From: Candidatus Kapaibacterium sp.
Lineage (GTDB): Bacteria; Bacteroidota; Ignavibacteria; Kapaibacteriales; UBA2268
Length of the DNA: 64,000 nucleotides
Reading direction: 5' to 3'
NCBI GenBank assembly: GCA_026390695.1
Contig: JAPLFL010000094.1
Location: 1-64,000, forward strand
The notes under the pieces were generated by a model, which saw only the letters and a program-made list of their open reading frames with translations, ran no database searches and was not told the origin of the DNA. Each line of letters starts with the position of its first letter. The stretch's first letter is position 1. The translations under genes and the position numbers were made by a program. This document shows positions 7,138-64,000 of the stretch, in pieces.

Positions 7138-8049
7138 ATGAATAATAAAATATTTATTAAAATTGCTTTAGCAGTGATTTTTCTATCAGCATGCACCGAA
7201 AATAAAAGTATAAATCCAATTATCATAGCTCAGATTTCAAGTATAACGCCAAGTTCAGGAAAAATTAATGATACTATTACGATTTTTGGTAATAATTTTG
7301 GCGATATTGGTTCTTTTTACTACGATGGTGGTTATGTTTCATTTAATAGTACAACTGCTTCAAGATACTTGAGTTGGGGCGATACTAAAATAATCGTAAT
7401 TGTGCCACCAGAAGCTAAAAGTGGTAAGGTTTATGTAAGCATCAAGTCTAAAAAAAGCAACGAAGTCGATTTTACGGTAACTCCTATTATTTACGAATCT
7501 GTTACTATCGGTACTCAGGTTTGGATGAAAACAAATCTTGATGTAGATCATTACAGGAATGGAGATCAGATTCCAAATATCTGGGATGAATCTGTATGGG
7601 CTAATTCCAAAACCGGTGCTTGGTGCATGCAAGATCATAATGGAACATTAGCTTATGGGAAATTATATAATTGGTATGCAGTTCATGATCCTCGTGGATT
7701 GGCTCCTGCTGGATGGCATGTGGCGAGTGATGCAGAATGGATCAAACTAATACAATATCTTGGTGGAGATAGTGTAGCTGGCCATACAATGATTATTCCA
7801 AGTGCCTGGTCATGCTTTAGAGCGACTGATTCTAATTCAAGTGGCTTTTCTGCATTAGCTGGTGGAATGCTTAATATTAATGGAAGTGGATATTTAACAC
7901 AACTTAAACTCGATGGCTATTGGTGGACTTCTACGGAAAGAAATATTAATAATGCGCTGTATTGGGGGCTCTCATGCGGAAACTTAACGAATTATAAATC
8001 TGATTTTGAAAAAAGTTATGGTTTTTCAGTCAGATGTGTGAAGGATTAA
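7138..8049 (+). CDS. IPT/TIG plus FISUMP-domain lipoprotein (copy 1)
   Basis: A 303-aa predicted lipoprotein: hydrophobic start and lipobox LSAC with Cys19. Residues about 30-115 form an IPT/TIG domain ('ISSITPSSGKINDTITIFGNNFG', 'VIVPPEAKSGKVYVSIKSKKSN'). Residues about 120-303 form a FISUMP domain (Fibrobacter succinogenes major paralogous domain), shown by 'TIGTQVWMKTNLDVDHYRNGD', 'YGKLYNWYAVHDPRGLAPAGWHV', 'GYWWTSTE' and the terminal 'SVRCVKD'. The function of FISUMP is not established; it occurs in surface proteins of FCB bacteria, often in multigene families. A small lipoprotein gene starts 1 nt after the stop, and the pair is repeated directly downstream (8458-9841). Confidence 0.88.
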   Translation: MNNKIFIKIALAVIFLSACTENKSINPIIIAQISSITPSSGKINDTITIFGNNFGDIGSFYYDGGYVSFNSTTASRYLSWGDTKIIVIVPPEAKSGKVYVSIKSKKSNEVDFTVTPIIYESVTIGTQVWMKTNLDVDHYRNGDQIPNIWDESVWANSKTGAWCMQDHNGTLAYGKLYNWYAVHDPRGLAPAGWHVASDAEWIKLIQYLGGDSVAGHTMIIPSAWSCFRATDSNSSGFSALAGGMLNINGSGYLTQLKLDGYWWTSTERNINNALYWGLSCGNLTNYKSDFEKSYGFSVRCVKD

Positions 8050-8050
8050 A

Positions 8051-8449
8051 ATGAAAAATGTAATTATTTTTTTCTTGTTCTCGACTTATACTTTTTTCTC
8101 ATGCGAATCATCGATCAGTCCTGACAAAGCAAAGATACAGCATGATATAACAGGAAAATGGACATTCTGGATAAATCCATTTTTTAATGAGTACAGTGGG
8201 ATAGATTTAGTTATTACCTTAAATAACGATTCTATTATTGGTACATCAACTTTCTGGTCAACAAGTCCCTCAAATAATACTCGGCAAGTTTATCCTTTAA
8301 CTGGGATTTATCAATACCCCGATCTTAAAATGGATTTTGGAAATTCCAAACATGCTGAAGGAAAACTCACAAACGAAACTATTATGATACTAACTGTTAC
8401 AAATAATCAAACAAAAGATAGCCTTAAGATGGCTTTTAATAAACAATAG
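8051..8449 (+). CDS. Small lipoprotein of unknown function (copy 1)
   Basis: A 132-aa protein with a hydrophobic N-terminus and Cys18 in 'TFFSC'. The rest reads as beta strands: 'GKWTFWINPFF', 'IDLVITLNNDSIIGTSTF', 'LTGIYQYPDLKMDFGNSKHAEGKL'. The G-x-W start and alternating strands suggest a small lipocalin-like or beta-sandwich fold, which I infer only from pattern. It pairs with the FISUMP lipoprotein upstream (1-nt gap), and its paralogue at 9413-9841 shares 'NNDSI.GT..F', 'GxYxxPxxxxxxG.S.HA.G' and the ending '.KQ'. Confidence 0.72.
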   Translation: MKNVIIFFLFSTYTFFSCESSISPDKAKIQHDITGKWTFWINPFFNEYSGIDLVITLNNDSIIGTSTFWSTSPSNNTRQVYPLTGIYQYPDLKMDFGNSKHAEGKLTNETIMILTVTNNQTKDSLKMAFNKQ

Positions 8450-8457
8450 GTTATGTA

Positions 8458-9411
8458 ATGAAGAAAATATTTTTTCTATCCTCCATATCAATAATTATTT
8501 TTATTTTATCATGCAATAATTATCAATATAATTTAGATTTAACTACAAAGGATAAAATTTATCCACCGCTTATCACAAGAATTGATCCAGATACAGCGAT
8601 TGTTGGTGATTATATTTATATATGGGGCCAACATTTATGTTATGATAATCGGGTTATGTATGTTTCTTTTAACGGAGTAAAAGTTGGAATGATCGATAGT
8701 TGTTATTGTAACAGCGATGCGGTATTTGCAAAAGTTCCTGTTGGAGCCACCAGTGGTAAAATAAATGTCAAAACAGAAAAAGGAGACATTAGTAATGACA
8801 TGGAATTTGTTATTATTCCTCCATATAAAAAAATTTTTGGAACAGTTCAGGATATTGAAAATAATAGTTATAAAACAGTCAAGATTGGCAACCAGATTTG
8901 GATGGCAGAAAATTTAAATGTAAGTCACTACCGCAATGGTGATACTATTCCATTTGTTCAAATACATGCCCAATGGCTTGATTTAATAACTTGTGCAATT
9001 CTTGGTACAAGCTTCGGAAAGTTATATAATTGGTTTACTGTGAATGATCCACGTGGATTAGCGCCCATCGGATGGCATATTGCAAGTGATTCGGATTGGA
9101 AAGTTCTTGGCTGGTTTCTTGGCGGTGATGGCTATGCTGGTGGCAAATTAAAAGAAGTTGGAACTGATCACTGGCGAAGTCCAAATTACAAAGCAAGCAA
9201 TCAGTTCGGTTTCACTGCATTAGCAGGCGGAATGTGTAACAGCAAGAATGAGATACACAATTTTGATAAACAAGAAGGTTATTGGTGGACTTCTACCGAA
9301 ATTGATTCGCAGTTAGTGTGGAGCAAGGTCATTTATGATAACAATTGTGCTCTGATTAGTTTTAGAAATATAAAAACAGATGGGTTTGCTGTCAGATGTG
9401 TGAAGGATTAA
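8458..9411 (+). CDS. IPT/TIG plus FISUMP-domain lipoprotein (copy 2)
   Basis: A 317-aa paralogue of the protein at 7138-8049. Lipobox FILSC (Cys19); an IPT-like domain about residues 35-125 ('ITRIDPDTAIVGDYIYIWGQHL', 'VFAKVPVGATSGKINVKTEKGD'); a FISUMP domain about 135-317 ('KIGNQIWMAENLNVSHYRNGD', 'FGKLYNWFTVNDPRGLAPIGWHI', 'GYWWTSTE', 'AVRCVKD'). The two copies differ most in the IPT part and in the loop after HYRNGD. At the DNA level the 3' ends are nearly identical across the stop codon and into the next start, which supports duplication of the two-gene unit rather than of one gene. Confidence 0.88.
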   Translation: MKKIFFLSSISIIIFILSCNNYQYNLDLTTKDKIYPPLITRIDPDTAIVGDYIYIWGQHLCYDNRVMYVSFNGVKVGMIDSCYCNSDAVFAKVPVGATSGKINVKTEKGDISNDMEFVIIPPYKKIFGTVQDIENNSYKTVKIGNQIWMAENLNVSHYRNGDTIPFVQIHAQWLDLITCAILGTSFGKLYNWFTVNDPRGLAPIGWHIASDSDWKVLGWFLGGDGYAGGKLKEVGTDHWRSPNYKASNQFGFTALAGGMCNSKNEIHNFDKQEGYWWTSTEIDSQLVWSKVIYDNNCALISFRNIKTDGFAVRCVKD

Positions 9412-9412
9412 A

Positions 9413-9841
9413 ATGAAATATAATATGCATACAACGATACAATCTCAAAAAAAATATCTACTTTGCTTCATGTTAATTATTATTTTTATTTCTTGTGAAA
9501 ATTCAAGCAATATAATAATCATAAAACCTAAACCATTTTTAAACGGCTCTTGGCGATGGGTTCATTTTATAAGTTATTTTAGTACTGAAAGCATCGAATT
9601 GGTATTGACCCAAAATAATGATTCTATCTCTGGAACAGCAAAATTCACAACTGCCAGTTTGATGAGTTATCATGAGGAGATATTCGGTTTAAACGGGACT
9701 TATAAATTCCCAAATATTGAATTGAATATCGGAGTTTCTTATCATGCTAAGGGAACAGTTAACGATTCTTCAGGTATATCACTGATTTTAACAAATATTA
9801 ATACAAATGAAGATATTTCGACTTATTTTGATAAACAATAA
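9413..9841 (+). CDS. Small lipoprotein of unknown function (copy 2)
   Basis: A 142-aa paralogue of 8051-8449 with lipobox-like 'IFISC' (Cys28). It keeps the same strand pattern: 'GSWRWVHFI', 'IELVLTQNNDSISGTAKF', 'LNGTYKFPNIELNIGVSYHAKG'. The N-terminus is longer than that of copy 1; Met5 (MHTTIQ) is another possible start. It begins 1 nt after the FISUMP gene, exactly as in copy 1. Role unknown; probably a partner or accessory of the FISUMP lipoprotein. Confidence 0.7.
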   Translation: MKYNMHTTIQSQKKYLLCFMLIIIFISCENSSNIIIIKPKPFLNGSWRWVHFISYFSTESIELVLTQNNDSISGTAKFTTASLMSYHEEIFGLNGTYKFPNIELNIGVSYHAKGTVNDSSGISLILTNINTNEDISTYFDKQ

Positions 9842-9874: not shown

Positions 9875-10912
9875 GTGAAATTATACGATTATTTATTATC
9901 TTTTTTTAATATTTTAACTATTAGTTTTCTCATTGATTCATGTGGTGGAATGGGACCAATAACTATTGATAATAAAATTTATTATCCAAGTCAAGTATCT
10001 TTAGGAATGGTTTTAAAAAATTCGATTCAAAAAAATACTTGTACTATTGGCAATGATTGCCCTAATGACATATACCTATATGTTTCTATAGAGGGAAAAG
10101 ATAAGGATTTTTTTTCAATTGATAAAACCTCATTATTTTTAAAAGGTGCTACTTTAACTTCAAAGGCTGGATCTGACAATCTTGTTATTGGATTTTCTCC
10201 AATGGAGAATAGAGATTATTCCGCAATAATAAAAATGAAAACTAACCAAGGTAATTACGAAATTCAATTAACAGGAACAGGAACCAATTTTTGTATCAGT
10301 CCATCTCTGATTCTTAATTTTAATGATGCGCCATGGGCGGCTGTTACAAGAAAATCAATCATTATTAAAAATATTTATAATGCCGATATGATTATCTCCC
10401 CAAAAATAGAAGGTGTTGATAAAGATGCGTTTAGTTTTGATTATCAACCTTCATGTCCAATAGCAACTAATACTTCCGATAGCATTGTAATTAAATTTTT
10501 TGGCGATTCCTCATCTAAACTCTTTAATGCTCAAATTTACATAGATGAAAATAAAAAATATTCAGTCCAGTTAAAAGGTTGTTATGGTAATGTTTATTCT
10601 CCTAATATTGAATTTGTACCAACCAACAGATATTTAGATTTTGGAGTGGTTTTTAAGAATACTAAAAATGAAAGATTTTTCCAGTTGACCAACCGATGGG
10701 AGTGGCCACATATTTTAACTAATTTCAGGATTGAAGGAAGTCCAAATTTTAAATTGGATAGTATCGGCGATCTGTCAATCAAACCAAATGATCCAGTCAA
10801 TATTAAAGTTTCATTTTCAGGATCTTCACCCGGAACTTATTTTGGGAAATTAAGGTTTGACGTACTACAGGACGCAGGTTGTTATATTTTACTAAAAGCA
10901 ATTGTTCACTAA
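9875..10912 (+). CDS. Choice-of-anchor D-like (ASPM/SPD-2/Hydin) repeat lipoprotein
   Basis: I place the start at GTG 9875 because it gives a clean export signal, 'MKLYDYLLSFFNILTIS', with Cys23 in 'LIDSC'. An upstream in-frame TTG at 9848 would add nine polar residues. The mature part has about three Ig-like repeats of the choice-of-anchor D kind: a hydrophobic opening, 'GKDKDFFSIDKTSLFLKG', 'LVIGFSPMENRDYSAIIKMKT', 'LTGTGTN', 'GVDKDAFSFD', and 'VSFSGSSPGTYFGKLRFDV'. This repeat is common in large secreted proteins of Ignavibacteria relatives and probably acts as a structural stalk. It lies in the same orientation after the duplicated lipoprotein module and before an outer-membrane protein, so it is likely part of the same envelope island. 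Confidence 0.7.
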   Translation: MKLYDYLLSFFNILTISFLIDSCGGMGPITIDNKIYYPSQVSLGMVLKNSIQKNTCTIGNDCPNDIYLYVSIEGKDKDFFSIDKTSLFLKGATLTSKAGSDNLVIGFSPMENRDYSAIIKMKTNQGNYEIQLTGTGTNFCISPSLILNFNDAPWAAVTRKSIIIKNIYNADMIISPKIEGVDKDAFSFDYQPSCPIATNTSDSIVIKFFGDSSSKLFNAQIYIDENKKYSVQLKGCYGNVYSPNIEFVPTNRYLDFGVVFKNTKNERFFQLTNRWEWPHILTNFRIEGSPNFKLDSIGDLSIKPNDPVNIKVSFSGSSPGTYFGKLRFDVLQDAGCYILLKAIVH

Positions 10913-16005: not shown

Positions 16006-16380
16006 ATATCATTTCCTTAATGAATTAGAAATTCTTGTCATTCTTCCGAAAATAATCAATTCATGAGGCTGTATCAAAAGCCACATATTTAACAAAGATG
16101 TCATTCCTGCGTATGCAGGAATCTCCTTCCAGTGCCACTTTAGGGGATTCCTACATTCGCAGGAATGACAGAAATGAGGCTTTTGAGACAGCCTCATGAA
16201 TAATATTTTCATACTAATTTGTGATTTTTTTTAATCATGACAGTTCCCGCGCATGAGACTGTGTGAAAACATGAAATATTCACGTGTCTGTCATTCCAGC
16301 GAATGCGGGAATCCCCTTCCAGTACCAATCAGGAGATTCCGCATTCTCAGTAATGACAGCTTTCAAGTAGGAAACGATAT
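16006..16380. mobile_element. MITE-like composite repeat element E1
   Basis: A 375-bp non-coding element. One end is ATATCATTTCCTTAATGAAT, the other (reverse complement) is ATATCGTTTCCTACTTGAAA, so both share an 11-bp terminal inverted repeat ATATCRTTTCC and then differ. Inside lie nested dyads: TGAGGCTGTATCAAAAGCC (16064-16082) against GGCTTTTGAGACAGCCTCA (16178-16196), and the hairpin TGTCATTCCTGCGTATGCAGGAATC / GATTCCTACATTCGCAGGAATGACA form. The centre carries CCAGTGCCACTTTA. No transposase is encoded. Related elements are E2 (17348-17775) and E3 (45758-46153). Confidence 0.7.
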
Positions 16381-17347: not shown

Positions 17348-17775
17348 ATATCATTTCCTACTTGAAGGCTGTCATTTGTGCGAATGCAGGAATCCCATAA
17401 AGTGGCACTGGAAGGAGATTCCTGTATACGAGACTGTGTGAAAACTTCAATTTCTGTCATTTGTGTGAATGCAGGAATCCCCTAAAGTGGCACTGGAAGG
17501 AGATTCCTGCATACGAGACTGTGTGAAAACTTCAATTTCTGTCATTTGTGCGAATGCAGGAATCCCCTAAAGTGGCACTGGAAGGAGATTCCTGCATGCG
17601 AGACTGTGTGAAAACTTCAATTTCTGTCATTCCTGCGAATGCAGGAATCCCCTAAAGTGGCACTGGAAGGAGATTCCTGCATACGCAGGAATGACATTTC
17701 ATTGGAATTTCATAGTTTTCACACAGTCTCATGCGGGGAATGACAATAATTCCTAATTCATTAAGGAAATGATAT
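17348..17775. mobile_element. MITE-like composite repeat element E2 with 85-bp tandem units
   Basis: A 428-bp non-coding element with ends ATATCATTTCCTACTTGAAG and (reverse complement) ATATCATTTCCTTAATGAAT, the same two end types as E1 in the opposite order. It contains four tandem 85-bp units starting at 17371, 17456, 17541 and 17626. Each has TGTCATT..GCGAATGCAGGAATCCC, AAAGTGGCACTGGAAGGAG, ATTCCTGCAT, and (except the last) GAGACTGTGTGAAAACTTCA. No spacers separate the units, so it is not a CRISPR array. Confidence 0.75.
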
Positions 17776-20761: not shown

Positions 20762-20980
20762 TTGTCTCTAATACTATTTACGAAGAAGATACATCTTTTT
20801 AAGAAGGAAAAACATCTTTTTAAGGAGGAAAATACTCTTCTAAAGGAGGAAAATACTCTTTTAAAGGAGGAAAATACTCTTTTAAAGGAGGAAAATACTC
20901 TTTTAAAGGAGGAAAATACTCTTTTAAAGGAGGAAAATACTCTTTTACTCTTTTTACAGATTCAAAGAGAGGTTATTTAA
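20762..20980 (+). repeat. 21-bp tandem repeat with Shine-Dalgarno-like core; encodes KEENTLL heptads if translated
   Basis: From about 20780 to 20955 the unit AAAGGAGGAAAATACTCTTTT repeats six times or so, preceded by two or three degenerate units (AAGAAGGAAAAACATCTTTT). The period of 21 is a multiple of 3, so one frame stays open: a TTG-started 72-codon frame reading KKEKHLF then KEENTLL repeated, with two Leu every seven residues. Each unit carries AAAGGAGG, a near-perfect anti-Shine-Dalgarno match, but no ATG follows any copy. It may be a real small coiled-coil peptide, an RNA element that attracts ribosomes, or simple slippage DNA. I call it a repeat and leave coding open. Confidence 0.75.
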
Positions 20981-45757: not shown

Positions 45758-46153
45758 ATATCGTTTCCTACTTGAAGGCTGTCATTCCTGTGTATGAGAC
45801 TGTGTGAAAACTTCAATTAATTGTCATTCCTGCGAATGCAGGAATCCACTGATTGGTACTGGAAGGGGATTCCCGCATGCGCGACTGTGTGAAAACTACC
45901 TTTTCTTGTCATTGCTGCGAATGCAGGAATCCCCTAAAGTGGCACTGGAAGGAGATTCCCGCATGCGCGACTCTGTGAAAATTACCTTTTCTTGTCATTC
46001 CTGCGAATGCAGGAATCCCTTAAAGTGGCACTGGAAGGAGATTCCTGCATTCGCAGAAAGACATTTTTGTTAAATATGAGGCTTTTGAGACGGCCTCAAT
46101 TGATTATTTTCGGATGAATGACAATAATTCCTAATTCATTAAGGAAATGATAT
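45758..46153. mobile_element. MITE-like composite repeat element E3
   Basis: A 396-bp non-coding element, ends ATATCGTTTCCTACTTGAAG and (reverse complement) ATATCATTTCCTTAATGAAT. Three tandem units of about 84-89 bp carry TGTCATTCCTGCGAATGCAGG, AAAGTGGCACTGGAAGGAG and GCATGCGCGACT.TGTGAAAA. The right part holds GAGGCTTTTGAGACGGCCTC, as in E1. The plus-strand frame across it (reading CHSCECRNPL) is translated repeat, not a gene. It lies between the toxin-antitoxin region and moxR. Confidence 0.75.
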
Positions 46154-62030: not shown

Positions 62031-62161
62031 CTTGAATGTCGTTTCTAAGGTATAACTGAAAATAAAACTTAAATTAAAATAAATAAGTCAATTATCCAAA
62101 AAAAACATTAATTTTGAGAAAGAATTATGTAATAATTTTATTTATTAAAGCTGGATCAATA

Positions 62162-62614
62162 ATGAATTTTGAAGCAAAAATAAACGAGGAGTTAAAAACT
62201 GCAATTAGAGCCGGAGATAAAATTCGCCTTGAAACTATACGCGGCTTACGTGCACGAATTATTGAATTTAATAAAAGTGGCTCTCAACGCGACCTAAATG
62301 AAGATGATGCCATAAAAATTTTGAATTTTGAAGCTAAAAAGCGAAAAGATGCTATCGAAATGTACGAAAAAGGTGGTCGGGCAGACCTTGCAGATCGGGA
62401 AAAAGCAGAATTGAAGGTAATTCAGGAATTTCTTCCTCAGCAATTAACCATTGAAGAAATCACTGCTATGGCTGAGGAACTGATCATCAAATTTGATGTG
62501 CGCGATTCAAAAGATTTTGGTAGAATTATGGGTGCCTTAATGCCAAAAGTCACCGGAAAAGCGGATGGGAAGGTAGTTACTGAAATTATTAAAAACTTAC
62601 TTTCTAATTCGTAA
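62162..62614 (+). CDS. GatB/YqeY domain protein
   Basis: A 150-aa protein taking ATG 62162 (MNFEAKINEELKTAIRAGDKIRLETIRGLRARI), which matches the family start; an upstream TTG frame adds a hydrophobic, unlikely 16-residue lead. 'ALMPKVTGKADGKVVTEIIKNLL' is the YqeY C-terminal block, resembling the tail domain of GatB. Role uncertain; it may help tRNA amidation. It precedes mutS2 by 1 nt. Confidence 0.9.
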   Translation: MNFEAKINEELKTAIRAGDKIRLETIRGLRARIIEFNKSGSQRDLNEDDAIKILNFEAKKRKDAIEMYEKGGRADLADREKAELKVIQEFLPQQLTIEEITAMAEELIIKFDVRDSKDFGRIMGALMPKVTGKADGKVVTEIIKNLLSNS

Positions 62615-62615
62615 T

Positions 62616-64000
62616 ATGACTAAAAACAATTCTTCTGAAAATAATAGATTTAATAATTCTGAAACATTGGATGCTACACATTTTGCTGATTCCGACGGGG
62701 ATTCCCGCATTCGCAGCAATGACCTTTCTGTATTAGAAAATAGTTTGATAATTGAAACCTTGAAAGAACTTGAATTTTATTCAGTTTTAGATATTATCAG
62801 CAAAAATACTATTTCCGATTATGGTGCAGAAATCATCAAAAGATCCTTCCCTTCTGCCGATTACGACGCTCTCAATCGTGAGTTGCAGCTTGTTGATGAA
62901 ATGAAGGAACTGATTGTTATGGAGGAGTCGCTGCCTTTCGGTGGTTTCACCGATGTTCGTCCTTTTCTGCATAAGGCTACCATCCAAAATTCTGTATTAT
63001 CTGCTACAGAAATGCTTACAGTGCGTGATCTGATGCGAATATCGCGAATGATTAAGAGTTTTATTAATTTACGACGTGATAGATTTCCAAATATATTCAA
63101 TGAAGCAATTTCAATATTTGAAAATAGATTATTAGAAAAACATATCGACGAAGTATTAGACGATGACGGCAATATCCGAGATAATGCTTCGAGAGAACTG
63201 ATGCGGATCCGCGGTGATATTTATTCTAAATCTGCTCACCTGCGTTCAAGACTGCAAAAAATTCTCCGCCAAGTTGCTGATGAAGATATGGCACAAGAGG
63301 AATTTGTTACCATGCGCGAGGAACGATTCGTCATACCTGTTAAAGCAGAGCACAAGCGCCATATTTCGGGTATCATACATGGTGTGTCTCAAACCGGATC
63401 GACTGTTTATGTGGAGCCATCGGAAATTATTGAAATGAACAATGATTTATCTCTTCTTTATAATGAAGAGAAACGCGAAATATATAAATTGTTATTTAAT
63501 CTCACCCGTGAGATTGCCGAAAACGCCGTGCAGTTTCTTATTTCCACCGAGATTGTCGGGCATTTCGACGCCGTTTCAGCTAAAGCACGATATGCTATGG
63601 AATACGGTGGAATCAAACCTAACGTCAGCGAGCTTAATGAAATATATTTAAACAAAGTCAAGCATCCCATACTATGTAAAACGAAGGGAATCAAACATGT
63701 CCTGCCTCTTTCTGTAACTTTTTCTGAAGCAAAACGCGGTTTTCTTATCTCCGGACCTAATGCAGGAGGCAAAACAGTCGCATTGAAAAGCATGGGACTC
63801 AGTATTCTAATGGCATTATCCGGTATTTTCCCTCTTGGAGAATGTTCCACAAATTACAGAACTGTTTTTTCTTCTATCGGAGATCGTCAGTCAATCGAAA
63901 ATGATCTGAGTACCTTCAGCTCGCAGATGTTGGCGCTCAAAAAAATATTAGATGTATGCGATTCTCATTCACTAATTCTCATTGACGAATTGGGTTCCGG
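62616..64000 (+). CDS. mutS2: Endonuclease MutS2, 5' part (cut by window end)
   Basis: About 461 codons, running off the right edge. After a variable N-terminus the family begins: 'TLKELEFYSVLDIISKNTISDYGAE', 'DVRPFLHKATIQNSVLSATEMLTVRDLMR', 'DEDMAQEEFVTMREERFVIPVKAEHKRHISGIIHGVSQTGSTVYVEPSEIIEMNN', 'HPILCKTKG', and Walker A 'GPNAGGKTVALKSMGL'; Walker B 'LILIDELGSG' is just reached. The C-terminal Smr nuclease domain would lie beyond. MutS2 suppresses homologous recombination and helps rescue stalled ribosomes. Residues 27-36 (DGDSRIRSND) come from a piece of the intergenic MITE-like repeat (62694-62723). Confidence 0.95.
   Translation, partial: MTKNNSSENNRFNNSETLDATHFADSDGDSRIRSNDLSVLENSLIIETLKELEFYSVLDIISKNTISDYGAEIIKRSFPSADYDALNRELQLVDEMKELIVMEESLPFGGFTDVRPFLHKATIQNSVLSATEMLTVRDLMRISRMIKSFINLRRDRFPNIFNEAISIFENRLLEKHIDEVLDDDGNIRDNASRELMRIRGDIYSKSAHLRSRLQKILRQVADEDMAQEEFVTMREERFVIPVKAEHKRHISGIIHGVSQTGSTVYVEPSEIIEMNNDLSLLYNEEKREIYKLLFNLTREIAENAVQFLISTEIVGHFDAVSAKARYAMEYGGIKPNVSELNEIYLNKVKHPILCKTKGIKHVLPLSVTFSEAKRGFLISGPNAGGKTVALKSMGLSILMALSGIFPLGECSTNYRTVFSSIGDRQSIENDLSTFSSQMLALKKILDVCDSHSLILIDELGS
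62694..62723 (+). repeat. Fragment of the E-type repeat inside mutS2
   Basis: GGGGATTCCCGCATTCGCAG followed by CAATGAC closely matches the E1-E3 arms (GGATTCCCGCATGCGCGACT; CATTCGCAGGAATGAC). It is in frame and adds about ten residues to the N-terminus of MutS2. Confidence 0.65.

Follow-up and report, generated by a model that had tools for sequence, protein, structure and literature searches.

A solitary palindromic repeat unit, probably translated, at the 5′ end of mutS2 in a Kapabacteria genome

The 5′ part of mutS2 (62616-63998, plus strand) closes the window, that is, the whole 64,000-nucleotide stretch of Candidatus Kapaibacterium DNA analysed here, and belongs to an 832-residue open frame that runs on past the window end. 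Positions 62694-62723 (plus strand), which start with the codon of residue 27 and encode DGDSRIRSND (residues 27-36), resemble a repeat otherwise seen between genes. This raises the question of whether an intergenic repeat has become part of a protein. The preliminary description of this DNA had answered that a repeat fragment was captured into coding sequence, in frame and ahead of the conserved domain. The position given there was right: the segment is part of the mutS2 open frame, and the MutS2 model TIGR01069 starts at residue 47, which leaves the repeat on its N-terminal side.

The match to the repeat is equally sound. Over 30 nt the segment is 90% complementary to positions 16290-16319 (pair I25), where a unit of the family lies on the minus strand (16289-16317), and its 24-mer core (62700-62723) shows a single mismatch to the repeat consensus GATTCCYGCATWCGCRGGAATGAC. 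When the genome (4,633,311 bases in 129 contigs) was searched for this 24-mer with up to three mismatches, 505 copies were recovered, against 0 for its reversed form. The only other site within one mismatch of the MutS2 27-mer is 45908-45934, contained in an array of units of the same family (45784-46064). The window holds a second such array at 17369-17697 and, at 16099-16170, two oppositely oriented units (16099-16127 and 16142-16170) that form a pair.

To describe the unit we used an 810-kb sample composed of the window and 40 stretches, mostly chosen where repeats were already listed. A script allowing up to four mismatches found 208 units in 89 clusters, and reversed controls gave 0. The unit is about 29 bp long. 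Its tag is TGTC in 198 of the 208 cases, and its stem keeps all eight pairs in 127 units, seven in 41 and fewer in 40. The stem starts with AT in 203 units, in line with the complementary A/T that opens the stem of CGTC-1 REPs at its first two positions. The loop, whose 4-nt length is presupposed by the scan, reads GAAT (93 units), GTAT (48) or GCAT (41), and the 3-nt tail CCC (128), CTC (60) or CCA (10). Sixty-six of 77 intergenic adjacent inverted pairs have their tags outside (HH) at a spacing of 44-48 nt, which is 45 nt in 35 of them and 46 nt in 24. The accessible text of Di Nocera, De Gregorio and Rocco (2013, PMC3733652) describes CGTC-1 REPs in the same terms: a tag of which TGTC is a named variant, an 8-bp stem opening with A-T pairs, a 4-nt loop, a 3-nt tail, tags-outside pairs, and a mostly intergenic location with some copies in genes. 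The tail, however, is mostly CCA there and mostly CCC or CTC here. According to the same text, this class includes Neisseria dRS3 and RPE-6 of R. conorii, and a gonococcal sequence printed in the accessible part of PMC7593972 contains units of this kind. The pattern also recurs closer to the host: of 23 other family genomes 10 have it, each with between 2 and 132 copies, as do 2 of 16 additional genomes from the order.

The MutS2 copy is one whole unit with its own small hairpin. Six of its eight stem pairs are left and its tag is GGTC instead of TGTC, which fits a partly decayed REP of the CGTC-1 type. The best candidate for an inverted partner upstream reached 12 of 24 identities, no better than shuffled sequence (median 12, 95% at 14), and the unit hence stands alone. 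The repeat origin put forward in the preliminary description is thus confirmed, whereas the word fragment is not, since what we find is a complete, solitary REP. As a separate observation, a cluster of diverged units in short open frames (L225, C13:22315-24045) shares 79% identity with the MutS2 region along 53 nt.

Comparison of MutS2 N-termini, which had been proposed as a check, turned out in favour of capture. None of 33 related mutS2 loci carries the unit, the best match having at least seven mismatches; about 31 of these loci are distinct (L061 and L063 apparently repeat L005 and L011), L025 comes without its 5′ end, and all are from outside the host genus, with no close-range empty site among them. 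The tail before Thr48 (62616-62756, plus strand) has 47 residues, and that of the 28 relatives with a readable start has 10 to 51, with a median of 15. The unit accounts for just 10 of the roughly 32 residues in excess of this median, so that an insertion may have had other borders than those of the unit; the remaining extra residues, outside the unit, are rich in Asn and Ser. The sole relative with a longer tail (L005, 51 residues) is devoid of any unit, so long tails can arise without the repeat. The event may have been an insertion, or the 5′ end of the gene may have grown over a repeat.

Whether the unit is translated depends on the start codon. In 24 of 29 relatives yqeY (GatB/YqeY; here 62159-62614, plus strand) lies directly upstream of mutS2. 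The ATG at 62616 is 1 nt past the yqeY stop, and we favour it as the probable start over a TTG behind the repeat because the two genes are similarly close in 12 of these 24 relatives (gaps of -4 to 2 nt). With a start at TTG 62745 or 62760, the repeat would lie in the leader of mutS2 and the frame through it would be open by luck. Both codons exist, and the conserved domain begins at residue 47, behind the repeat. Moreover, 6% of shuffled sequences also give an open tail this long, and openness alone is therefore weak evidence of translation. The accessible text of PMC3733652 cautions that many N-terminal REPs are perhaps extragenic owing to misannotated starts, and two other ORF calls of this genome (L079:2-5059 and L070:14099-15040) look alike by eye. 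On the other hand, TTG 62745 would leave a gap of 130 nt, when the largest among the 24 relatives with yqeY upstream is 85 nt. All in all, we consider a start behind the repeat unlikely.

Capture of the repeat into a translated 5′ end of mutS2 is thus the best reading of the sequence: very probably, a single, partly decayed CGTC-1-type REP sits where the 5′ end of the gene is free of constraint, and its translation would give a polar segment within the non-conserved tail. An AlphaFold model of MutS2 (5 rows, mean pLDDT 61.7) places residues 1-53 below 50, and we considered describing the tail as disordered. This was dropped, as the conserved residues 331-461 fall below 50 as well and a helix is drawn from residue 29.

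The claim of capture gains further support from other genes. Besides mutS2, at least seven genes of this genome contain pairs or arrays of the repeat in frame, a lower bound, since the genome searches, run in two frames, scored the best 150 of 355 and the best 150 of 431 candidates. In the 810-kb sample, only 9 of the 89 clusters (24 units) overlap ORFs, nine in number and called with our own simple ORF caller, whereas a coding fraction of 0.749 predicts about 67. The two ORF calls mentioned above were dropped as genes with inserts, the repeat seeming by eye to lie ahead of a later start; the remaining seven are mutS2 and six genes with in-frame pairs or arrays. The genes with inserts encode valyl-tRNA synthetase (ValRS; L085:12429-15260, minus strand), NAD synthetase (NadE; L076:9325-10512), acetoacetate-CoA ligase (L073:11893-14091), an SbcD-like nuclease (L074:12307-13683, minus strand), a glutathionylspermidine-synthase-like protein (L070:16332-17654), a glycosyltransferase (L120:7575-8987) and a type ISP restriction-methylase (L222:1766-5176), the last found when the genome was searched with the alternative open frame.

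The clearest of these cases is ValRS, in which the insert is missing in all 23 relatives that could be aligned, out of 29 searched, and the compared stretch measures 101 residues against 54-66 in relatives. This is the only ValRS detected in the genome, other matches being far weaker synthetase paralogues or repeats. A clean insert of 60 residues in the SbcD-like nuclease is missing in the three relatives aligned, of six with any match, and residues 230-334 of the acetoacetate-CoA ligase (105 residues) face 18 residues in PDB 4wd1. The NadE array falls after the matched core (end at residue 214-223) and before the C-terminal end; it includes a run of N that makes its length uncertain. The genome showed no second NAD synthetase, and the relatives' NadE matches, mostly to longer proteins and over part of the length, yield no empty site. 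In the array itself (L076, about 10122 to 10242), tandem steps of 14 residues (SGDSCIRRNDSDDT) are interrupted by the N run, and it may be longer than it appears. The synthase-like protein, the glycosyltransferase and the type ISP methylase were assessed only through domain matches that flank or adjoin the insert, two of the three having no PDB match; in the methylase the unit pair (residues 1012-1035) lies beyond the best stretch (692-981) of the C-terminal domain match. A single 23-residue query for in-gene arrays, covering nine of the ten family relatives with the repeat, returned a partial match to a 576-residue open frame (G014, E 0.37) and two open frames of 292 and 539 residues with a stop inside the match. 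Misassembly is an unlikely cause of the in-gene inserts, because the gene and its frame are the same on both sides of each insert. Compared with inserts in the middle of enzymes such as ValRS, which are more striking, the case at the front end of MutS2 is the mildest, and is minor in itself.

Inside genes, the spacing of head-to-tail units is a multiple of three in 7 of 7 cases, versus 8 of 27 outside (P 0.001), and in 6 of 6 when the case spanning Ns is left out (P 0.003), a result that is partly built in, the genes having been picked as frames that stayed open. The in-gene spacings are 42 nt five times, 93 nt and 144 nt. A bias is also visible in the choice of frame. Six of the seven paired in-gene inserts are read as VIPANAGIP-linker-GDSCIRRND, the exception being the type ISP gene that came from the search with the other frame, and the lone MutS2 unit is read in the same frame. 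Among intergenic pairs this frame accounts for 61 of 199 open readings, or 61 of 166 without frame B. The preference in genes has a binomial P of 0.004-0.012, calculated post hoc. We rejected hydropathy as the cause of this bias, with mean values of 1.08 (VIPANAGIP) and -1.52 (GDSCIRRND) for the preferred frame and of -0.69 (SFLRMQESP) and 1.08 (GIPAFAGMT) for the other. A broader proposal would be that proteins tolerate the repeat with a preference for the VIPANAGIP-linker-GDSCIRRND frame, and that in-frame growth by 42 nt (14 codons) in the single-copy NadE and SbcD-like genes gives rise to new repeat-derived loops, from 60 to about 100 residues long; taken as a whole, we hold it as rather doubtful.

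The same excess of one frame over its intergenic share could mean that the inserted peptides have been taken into use, for instance as binding or regulatory parts. We find this highly improbable: the proteins and the insertion sites are all different, the inserts are missing in the aligned relatives and so offer no conservation to weigh, and a cost of whatever kind attached to the other frames would yield an equal bias. As for an ordinary coding sequence that resembles the repeat by chance, it can practically be discarded, for, short as the segment is, the reversed control finds nothing in 4.63 Mb at three mismatches, where the 505 copies stand against it and the MutS2 site has one, and the related mutS2 loci lack the unit.

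The preferred reading, a tolerated and translated REP, starts from what is observed, namely the repeat match, its absence in aligned relatives, the open frame and the other in-gene arrays. For the remainder, we infer translation of the repeat, tolerance rather than benefit, and loss of harmful copies. REP pairs would arrive in the genome by some route, and in this lineage a unit would have settled at the 5′ end of mutS2, where constraint is lacking, as one of at least eight sites at which genes of this genome have taken up the repeat in frame. Gene-breaking copies were most likely lost, which would explain why nearly all others are intergenic. Those surviving in genes would be of frame-keeping length, in tolerant places, and would leave the protein whole; arrays within genes, as in NadE and the SbcD-like nuclease, may then grow by tandem steps of 42 nt. 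A Y1 (RAYT-type) transposase was considered as the mover. Across 24 genomes of the family, counts of Y1_Tnp and of units are correlated (Spearman 0.73), and 9 of the 11 genomes that have units possess Y1 genes versus 4 of the 13 that lack them (P 0.017), both figures being uncorrected for kinship and genome size. However, of 20 Y1_Tnp genes examined, out of about 60 listed, only 3 have a unit at a distance of about 2 kb or less, 1 of the 4 from this genome among them, and the transposase was not adopted. Random windows of the repeat-rich sample contain a unit with a frequency of 0.315, a baseline from this genome that is unmatched for the 16 Y1 genes of other genomes. In the accessible text of PMC3733652, CGTC-1 REPs are described as having no association with transposase genes.

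The type of event is already known. According to that text, REPs of its two superfamilies lie in frame inside genes, those for repair proteins and tRNA synthetases included, and REP clusters encode 43-82 residues. What is new, relative to the accessible text, is the host lineage and the host genes, that is, Kapabacteria and inserts in the genes for ValRS, NadE, acetoacetate-CoA ligase, the SbcD-like nuclease and the type ISP methylase. In the open-licence literature we found, among the matches listed, no report of in-gene repeats of this kind in Kapabacteria. The repeat works like the Rickettsia palindromic element (Ogata et al. 2000, as covered in the accessible part of the review PMC2229807), also a palindromic repeat found in frame in genes of conserved proteins. 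It is nonetheless no member, as size and host differ: the Rickettsia element spans 105-146 bp, whereas our units measure about 29 bp and occur in pairs or arrays. One product with such an element, Rickettsia Gmk, is translated and active according to the same review, which supports tolerance of the inserts. The enterobacterial RU elements (Delihas 2007, PMC2759123, in its accessible part), which we liken by description, are intergenic repeats with an open frame fused to genes as well, but at 103-168 bp they are longer than the units here. Our results add a 4.6 Mb genome, from a lineage far from Rickettsia, to those with in-frame intergenic palindromes in conserved proteins. ValRS and NadE, both expected to be essential, offer with their repeat-derived inserts a chance to test directly how proteins tolerate loops.

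Some further observations were made along the way. The window contains an array of 21-bp tandem repeats at 20773-20968 (family D2) and, at 7657-9421, a sequence of coding appearance in two diverged copies with a separation of about 1360 nt (D8, D15, D20), which by eye we take to be FISUMP-like. A second repeat family, of the CCCC..TTT..AAA..GGGG type, also present at 826-1149 of the window, seems by eye to be translated too: as HPLPLLTKEG in ValRS, immediately before the unit pair, as MPALSKEGKEA in the type ISP methylase, and as SPFLKGGLWGIL near residue 150 of L079. A strict DNA pattern for this family has 60 matches in the sample, one place of which, in L079, lies in an ORF call and is matched twice.
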